Origin: an uncultured Chloroflexota bacterium | GTDB taxonomy: Bacteria; Chloroflexota; Dehalococcoidia; Lucifugimonadales; CAJXCD01 | Direction: 5' to 3' | Assembly: GCA_913051545.1 (NCBI GenBank) | Contig: CAJXCD010000003.1 | Location: 32,341-96,340, forward strand | DNA length: 64,000 bases | In this document: positions 63,030 to 64,000 of the stretch, piece after piece | Layout: each line of letters starts with the position of its first letter | Position numbering within the stretch: the first letter of the stretch is position 1 | Program-made: the position numbers and the translations under genes | Notes under the pieces: model-generated | Database searches by the model: none | What the model saw: only the letters and a program-made list of their open reading frames with translations | Told to the model about the DNA's origin: nothing

Positions 63030-63300
63030 TAGAACCTCCACATTAATCTAATCTAAAATACGAAAGTATTATTTGACGTAATACCTTGCTCATGATGGTA
63101 TACAGGTGGAATTTTATTAACAAACCACTAGATAATATCCTAACTTGAATACACATGTACTAGAAATTTATGACTTAAGACAACTACTATTACTAATGAA
63201 CACTTTCTAACTAAAACATCCAGGCGTCTAATACATACCTCTAAAATCAACTGCTCTATAATATAGATCTTAATCTTTGTAACGAAAGGAGGGGACACAA

Positions 63301-64000
63301 GTGACTGAGCCTATCAATCAAATAAATCTGACAGAACTAGCCAACTGTGCTGGTTGAGCCTCAAAATTTAGTCCAAAAGACTTGGCGCACGTGATGCGCC
63401 ATATACCGAAATTCAGTGATCCGAATTTGCTCGTTGGGCCTTCGACTGAGGACGATGCAGCTGTCTATCAAATCTCTGACGATTTGGCGTTAATACAAAC
63501 AGTTGATTTTTTCCCTCCAATTGTTGACGACCCATATGATTTTGGAGAAATCGCTGCGGCTAACGCCTTTAGCGACGTATATGCTATGGGTGGAAATCCC
63601 ATACTGGCTCTAAATATTCTGGGATTTCCAGCTAAACTTTCGAAAGAAGACGTACTCGGTAAAATTATTCAGGGAGGAGTCGCCAAGGCTACCGAAGCTG
63701 GAGTATTAATTGTTGGAGGACACACTGTAGATGACAATGAGCCTAAATATGGAATGTCTGTTACAGGGATAATAAAGCCCGGTTTTGAAATAACCAATTC
63801 TGGAGCCCAGCCAGGAGATGTTCTGGTCCTCACTAAACCTATTGGAACTGGTATCCTCACGACAGCCTCAAAATTTAAAAAGGTCAACAAAAAATTTCTT
63901 GATCAAGCAGTGGTGACCATGAAACAGTTAAATGATTCTGCTTCAAAAGCTATGTCAAAAGTAGGCGTGAATGCTTGCGTAGATGTGACAGGATTCGGCC
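63301..64000 (+). CDS. selD: selenide, water dikinase (SelD) with in-frame UGA for selenocysteine; runs off the window
   Basis: Makes selenophosphate, the selenium donor for Sec-tRNA. GTG start 6 nt behind AGGAGGGG. Codon 19 (63355-63357) is TGA; translation through it gives NCAG-U-ASKFSPKDLAHVM, matching the E. coli catalytic loop around C17 and K20, with U at the C17 position, Lys22 kept and the second cysteine (C19) replaced by Ser. Downstream, TVDFFPPIVDDPYDFGEIAA, SDVYAMGGNP and VGGHTVDD are clean SelD motifs to the edge. Other genes here end in TGA, so UGA is a normal stop. About 233 codons seen of roughly 345. Confidence 0.95.
63355..63401 (+). promoter_or_regulatory. selenocysteine UGA and bacterial SECIS-like hairpin in selD
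   Basis: The UGA at 63355-63357 is followed after 25 nt by TGGCGCA (63383-63389), loop CGTGA, TGCGCCA (63395-63401): a perfect 7-bp stem. UGA-to-loop distance is 32 nt and the loop has G in second place, both within the bacterial SECIS pattern known from SelB-dependent genes. Confidence 0.8.

Follow-up and report, generated by a model that had tools for sequence, protein, structure and literature searches.

An in-frame UGA, probably read as selenocysteine, at the catalytic cysteine position of selD in a Chloroflexota genome

The window analyzed here, a stretch of 64,000 nucleotides (G000:C3:32341-96340), comes from a draft assembly of 1.86 Mb in 31 contigs (92.4% complete, 3.1% contamination) and ends inside a selD gene whose codon 19 is TGA. 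The question raised by this locus is whether that codon is translated and, if so, as which amino acid. From the GTG start codon at 63301, the gene reads GTG-...-NCAG-TGA-ASKFSPKDL..., and with TGA taken as a residue the frame stays open past the end of the window (L006:641-1717), up to G000:C3:96717. In the window, the 19-base string that includes the predicted ribosome binding site and the GTG is present a single time, with 0 occurrences expected from 100 shuffles. The coordinates of all features are collected in Table 1.

Table 1. Positions of the selD features in the window and of a second gene with an in-frame TGA elsewhere in the genome
Feature	Position	Strand	Remarks
Predicted ribosome binding site AAAGGAGG	63285..63292	+	8 bases 5' of GTG 63301; read in sequence
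selD (selenide, water dikinase)	63301..64000	+	First 233 codons; 358 codons to G000:C3:96717
Codon 16, Cys	63346..63348	+	CxxU motif with codon 19
In-frame TGA, codon 19, likely selenocysteine	63355..63357	+	TGA in 79/82 aligned SelDs
Codons 21-22, Ser-Lys	63361..63366	+	Ser21 on E. coli Cys19 (second Cys), Lys22 on Lys20
Shorter ORF from TTG (standard calling)	63382..64000	+	Without catalytic loop
Predicted bacterial SECIS hairpin	63383..63401	+	Stem TGGCGCA/TGCGCCA, loop CGTGA; from fold; register B
Thioredoxin-like UxxC gene	G000:C2:161547-162056 (L156:1471-1983)	-	Full reading 170 aa

The identity of the gene was well supported. It scored 381 and 387 bits with TIGR00476, whose cut-off is 125, the latter match covering positions 2 to 310 of the 311 in the model, and the search of the whole genome with the same model returned it with an E value of 2.7e-114 and one TGA inside. 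The Pfam domains AIRS and AIRS_C were both found. An AlphaFold model, made for the SelD of a relative (L039, UGA as Cys) and not for the window's own SelD, reached a pLDDT of 94.5, and its top structural match was Aquifex SelD 2yye with a TM score of 0.91. Together with the alignment of relatives described below, the open frame and the TIGR00476 score confirm what a sequence-only reading of the window had claimed, namely, a selD with an in-frame TGA at codon 19. Immediately after the end of selD, at the next base, argS starts (L006:1718). Among 80 related loci, 9 also have argS downstream of selD and on the same strand, at gaps of 20 bases to 4.7 kb, and in about two it directly adjoins selD; many of these loci are too short to show argS.

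Standard ORF calling, which the same reading expected to split or miss the gene, indeed begins only at TTG 63382. A shorter protein made from this TTG, with the UGA never translated, is thus what ORF calling gives, and it agrees with database entries: the protein deposited for this selD (P0003) has 327 aa, or 91% of the full reading, and the best 120 of 7999 scored SelD database proteins (P0003-P0122) are 309 to 328 aa long, 86 to 91% of the full reading. This explanation is nonetheless highly improbable. The codons ahead of the TGA are conserved (L10, L13, and G18 are identical in all 40 relatives compared), the ribosome site sits at the GTG, and the short form would be without the catalytic Cys or Sec and the Lys of SelD. 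That these best 120 of the 7999 database SelDs look cut off at UGA suggests that annotation shortens the enzyme at its active site.

The position of the UGA relative to a characterized enzyme was taken from a HMMER alignment of E. coli SelD (3u0o) with the window's SelD, which scored 273 bits over residues 6 to 340. Residue 19 aligned with Cys17 of the E. coli protein, where the GAGCGCK loop has its first Cys. The sequence-only reading had put the UGA at the nucleophilic Cys, had noted a Ser in place of the nearby second Cys, and had proposed alignment to SelD families as a check; this alignment placed the UGA and Lys22 on the catalytic Cys and Lys and Ser21 on the second Cys, as it had described. 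The columns of Lys22 and of the UGA (read as C) were invariant in 40 of 40 relatives.

Conservation of the codon itself was read in 80 related loci, which are the best 80 of 362 SelD matches and not a census. The aligned codon was TGA in 77 of them, TGC in 2, and TGT in 1; counting the genome's own two copies, the window gene and one on contig C31, gave the total in Table 1. Most of the 80 loci belong to records named SAR202, Dehalococcoidia, or Chloroflexi, and from these names of its closest SelD relatives the genome would be of the SAR202 type. The three Cys forms came from Anaerolineae, Latescibacteria, and Desulfuromonas records. In a more evenly spread sample, 79 genomes of the order including the one studied here, SelD was found over the cut-off in 63, and all 65 matches contained exactly one TGA; these 65 were scored for TGA count, the aligned codon being read only in the set of 82 sequences. 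Could the TGA be a sequencing error, or the gene a decayed copy? The genome is a draft in 31 contigs with 3.1% contamination, but 77 of 80 relatives share the TGA at this codon, the 358-codon frame is otherwise open and matches 67 of the 70 columns invariant among 40 relatives, and a ribosome site lies 5' of the GTG. Error or decay is scarcely conceivable against this evidence.

In addition to the UGA, the active site has a second conserved feature, the Cys at codon 16. A Cys at position -3 relative to the UGA with none at +2 was found in 74 of 79 UGA SelDs (own copies included). The opposite arrangement, Cys at +2 and none at -3, was shown by three UGA forms and by all three Cys forms. Two UGA forms had Cys at neither position, and 0 of 82 sequences had it at both. 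This distribution would fit an exchange of partner positions, the second group comprising only six sequences. Sec19 would presumably have the catalytic role, with Cys16 as its possible redox partner.

A 19-base hairpin was predicted downstream of the UGA, pairing 63383-63389 with 63395-63401 and thus occupying bases 26 to 44 after the codon. Its loop carries a G at base 34 downstream of the UGA. As a rule, one of the first two loop positions of a bacterial SECIS element is a G, 16 to 37 bases from the UGA, and the position of the loop G in the window fits this rule. When the 45 bases after the UGA were compared with synonymous recodings in which peptide and codon use of the gene were preserved, their MFE was lower than expected, with p values of 0.012 (500 recodings) and 0.006 (5000 recodings). 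A scan of 79 UGA SelDs from the UGA onward, with 78 sequences contributing to the last six windows of the scan, yielded a mean z of -1.57 for the first 45 bases, versus -0.87 to 0.06 in 15 later windows. For the selD studied here, z was -3.19 after the UGA, versus -1.85 to 1.24 in later windows. The three Cys forms gave z values of 1.03, 0.24, and -1.75 over the same 45 bases, with no clean separation from the UGA forms, and 25 of 79 UGA SelDs reach a p value of 0.05 on their own.

Stems of at least six pairs, G-U pairs allowed, fell into two registers, with the loop centre 29 bases (register A) or 35 bases (register B) after the UGA. Either register was present in 73 of 79 UGA SelDs, compared with a mean of 26.2 and a maximum of 36 in 200 rounds of synonymous recoding; the relatives share ancestry, so that these are not 79 independent tests and the odds are strong rather than exact. 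Register A was found in 55 of 79 (null mean, 22.0; maximum, 31) and register B in 30 of 79 (null mean, 5.5; maximum, 12). The high null for register A comes from the DLVQVL peptide, whose codons by themselves form a near-palindrome. Both registers, which are six bases or two codons apart, are possible in 12 of the 79. A speculative and, in our view, unlikely extension is that SAR202-type bacteria have two overlapping SECIS hairpins in their SelD message, of which only one can form at a time and between which lineages have shifted, and that messages able to form both act as a switch tying SelD synthesis to the selenium state. The two registers provide a natural setting in which to test how SelB senses the distance of a SECIS.

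The sequence-only reading attributed a selenocysteine system to the organism and expected selA, selB, and selC close by to the right of the window. A selA gene was found with 527 bits, over the cut-off, on contig C2, and selB, also over the cut-off and with a 619-aa frame containing SelB winged-helix domains, on contig C5. Both are therefore on other contigs, and the expected proximity did not hold. A second selB-like match on contig C9, a 402-aa frame beside a tRNA-Thr, was judged to be EF-Tu from its context. No match to selenouridine synthase was obtained in the genome, so that Sec synthesis would be the only use of selenophosphate seen in it.

The tRNA-Sec gene was not found in the 92%-complete assembly by RF01852, by ARAGORN on selected stretches and on the matches, by a pattern search, or by a covariance model of the clade's own (R1). 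The search proposed by the sequence-only reading, widened to the whole assembly, returned selA and selB but not selC. RF01852 had 15 matches, 14 of which are ordinary tRNAs according to ARAGORN, including the top match of 47.3 bits, a tRNA-Ser(tga) that was rejected on this ground. The fifteenth, 75 bases at the edge of contig C16 with 35.9 bits, received no ARAGORN call. R1 had 19 matches; ARAGORN was run on the 10 with the highest scores, all of them ordinary tRNAs, and the remaining 9 score 24.5 bits or less. The pattern search gave 5 matches, 2 of them overlapping, with no tRNA called in any. Rfam returned nothing over threshold in the window, and neither SECIS nor tRNA-Sec up to an E value of 1 in L006, L007, L029, and L030.

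Among relatives, tRNA-Sec is regular. RF01852 matched with at least 58 bits in 67 of the 79 genomes of the order, and ARAGORN called a tRNA-SeC with anticodon tca in all 30 relatives' loci to which it was applied; the RF01852 search of the GTDB family of the genome studied here returned that genome only. SelD and a strong tRNA-Sec match occurred together in 59 of the 79 genomes, SelD alone in 4, tRNA-Sec alone in 8, and neither in 8 (Fisher p, 1.6e-4). The genomes with SelD alone are the one studied here (G000), G034, G042, and G058, and G034 has tRNA-Sec matches of 54 bits that were not counted. The eight with tRNA-Sec and no SelD over the cut-off are G025, G028, G036, G040, G051, G055, G068, and G074; they are probably incomplete, although G028 and G036 are 94 to 95% complete.

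The location of tRNA-Sec in relatives offers an explanation for the negative result. A thioredoxin gene (trxA) lies 20 to 223 bases 5' of the tRNA-Sec gene on the same strand in 28 of the 30 relatives' loci (L124-L153). Of the two exceptions, one is a contig that ends 80 bases beyond the tRNA and the other is without a thioredoxin. The pairing is kept across many families of the order and could be used to locate selC. In the genome studied here, the thioredoxin model had three matches, and the only one over the cut-off is a 270-aa protein whose C-terminal part is long, which sets it apart from the short trxA that accompanies tRNA-Sec in relatives; the thioredoxin profile search of the 92%-complete assembly found no stand-alone trxA. 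Since trxA adjoins tRNA-Sec in 28 of 30 loci and no short trxA match was obtained, a single assembly gap likely holds both genes and would account for both absences, with tRNA-Sec lying in the unassembled part beside trxA.

The alternative is that the genome is without tRNA-Sec and that an unusual tRNA decodes the UGA as a different residue, for example, Cys or Trp. It draws on the same negative search, but selA and selB are both over the cut-off, tRNA-Sec is regular in relatives, and the assembly is 92% complete and likewise yielded no stand-alone trxA, the usual neighbour. Moreover, TGA ends 19 of the 52 non-overlapping mechanical ORFs of at least 150 aa in the window, in agreement with the earlier observation that UGA serves as a plain stop elsewhere in it. 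A different amino acid at codon 19 is therefore very unlikely.

Selenocysteine at codon 19 would gain weight from other genes of the genome read in the same way. The thioredoxin profile had one match with an internal TGA, at G000:C2:161574-161831, within a thioredoxin-like gene whose product is hydrophobic near the N-terminus and contains YSNYUVACLSAKPAVDRL, with the TGA at the first Cys of CxxC. Homologues matched in 54 of 79 genomes; the 30 best loci were taken, and in the 28 that align over the site, the codon was TGA in 23 (own copy included) and Cys in 5. Downstream of the codon, the hairpin z averaged -1.40 in the 23 TGA forms and -0.09 in the 5 with Cys. In this genome alone, the fold following the UGA was not significant (p, 0.116 and 0.113), and no NCBIfam model matched the gene over its cut-off. 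Because the TGA is conserved in 23 of 28 loci, selD is likely not the sole selenoprotein gene here, the thioredoxin-like UVAC protein being a likely second.

A second selD with TGA is present on contig C31 (L007, 3157 bases). Its product is 57% identical to the window's SelD and has 94% protein identity to that of L075 (isolate RS371); DNA identity between C31 and L075 is 85% over 845 bases of the selD part. It was considered as a paralogue and, given its closeness to L075, is probably on a mis-binned contig.

Clade-wide conservation of the TGA, the presence of SelA and SelB, the excess of hairpins over the null, and a second gene with a conserved UGA support selenocysteine at codon 19. We put the probability at roughly 93% that selD at 63301 has an in-frame UGA at its catalytic Cys which is read as Sec, with the downstream hairpin as the predicted SECIS for the genome's SelB. 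The selenocysteine system attributed to the organism at the outset is supported by these features, while its tRNA-Sec was not found in the assembly. As a mechanism, SelD would make selenophosphate from selenide and ATP, SelA would use it to turn seryl-tRNA-Sec into selenocysteyl-tRNA-Sec, and the hairpin 26 to 44 bases after the UGA would act as SECIS for SelB. Since the selenophosphate for selenocysteyl-tRNA-Sec comes from SelD itself, SelD would be required to make its own full-length form. The Sec trait is thereby likely established firmly for SAR202-type Chloroflexota, whose SelD would depend on the selenophosphate that it produces.

SelD proteins containing Sec have long been known in bacteria, the Haemophilus and Aquifex types being examples. 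Compared with the bacterial Sec-SelD family (TIGR00476), the protein described here shares the UGA at the catalytic Cys, a conserved Lys three residues on, and the AIRS fold, but differs in having a Cys three residues before Sec, which gives CxxU, and in having Ser or Ala where the second Cys would be. It also differs from E. coli SelD (3u0o), in which the residue at this site is Cys instead of Sec and is followed two positions later by another Cys. It is a regular Sec-SelD, in a lineage for which, by a literature search made mostly outside subscription journals, such an enzyme seems to have been little described; the CxxU motif and the SECIS-like hairpin in two registers are its less usual details. 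Three papers (PMC1794560, PMC2398784, and PMC13188914) place SelD among the most widespread selenoproteins. PMC1794560 counts 3 selenoproteins in Chloroflexi, and PMC5649159 describes SelA and SelB from the majority of its sponge symbiont bins, which belong to various phyla. CxxU itself is already in print: according to PMC2398784, the motif occurs in about 5.6% of the single-domain Sec-SelDs from the GOS ocean data (2008), and neither SAR202 nor Chloroflexi is named in that text (0 occurrences). What is added here is that CxxU, at 74 of 79, is the rule in this clade, and its near constancy suggests the clade as a source of the rare CxxU SelDs in ocean metagenomes. The Ndh-SelD fusions with CxxC in the same text likewise place two redox residues at the active site of SelD, spaced as C-x-x-C; unlike them, the 358-codon gene has no Ndh part, and Sec replaces the second Cys.
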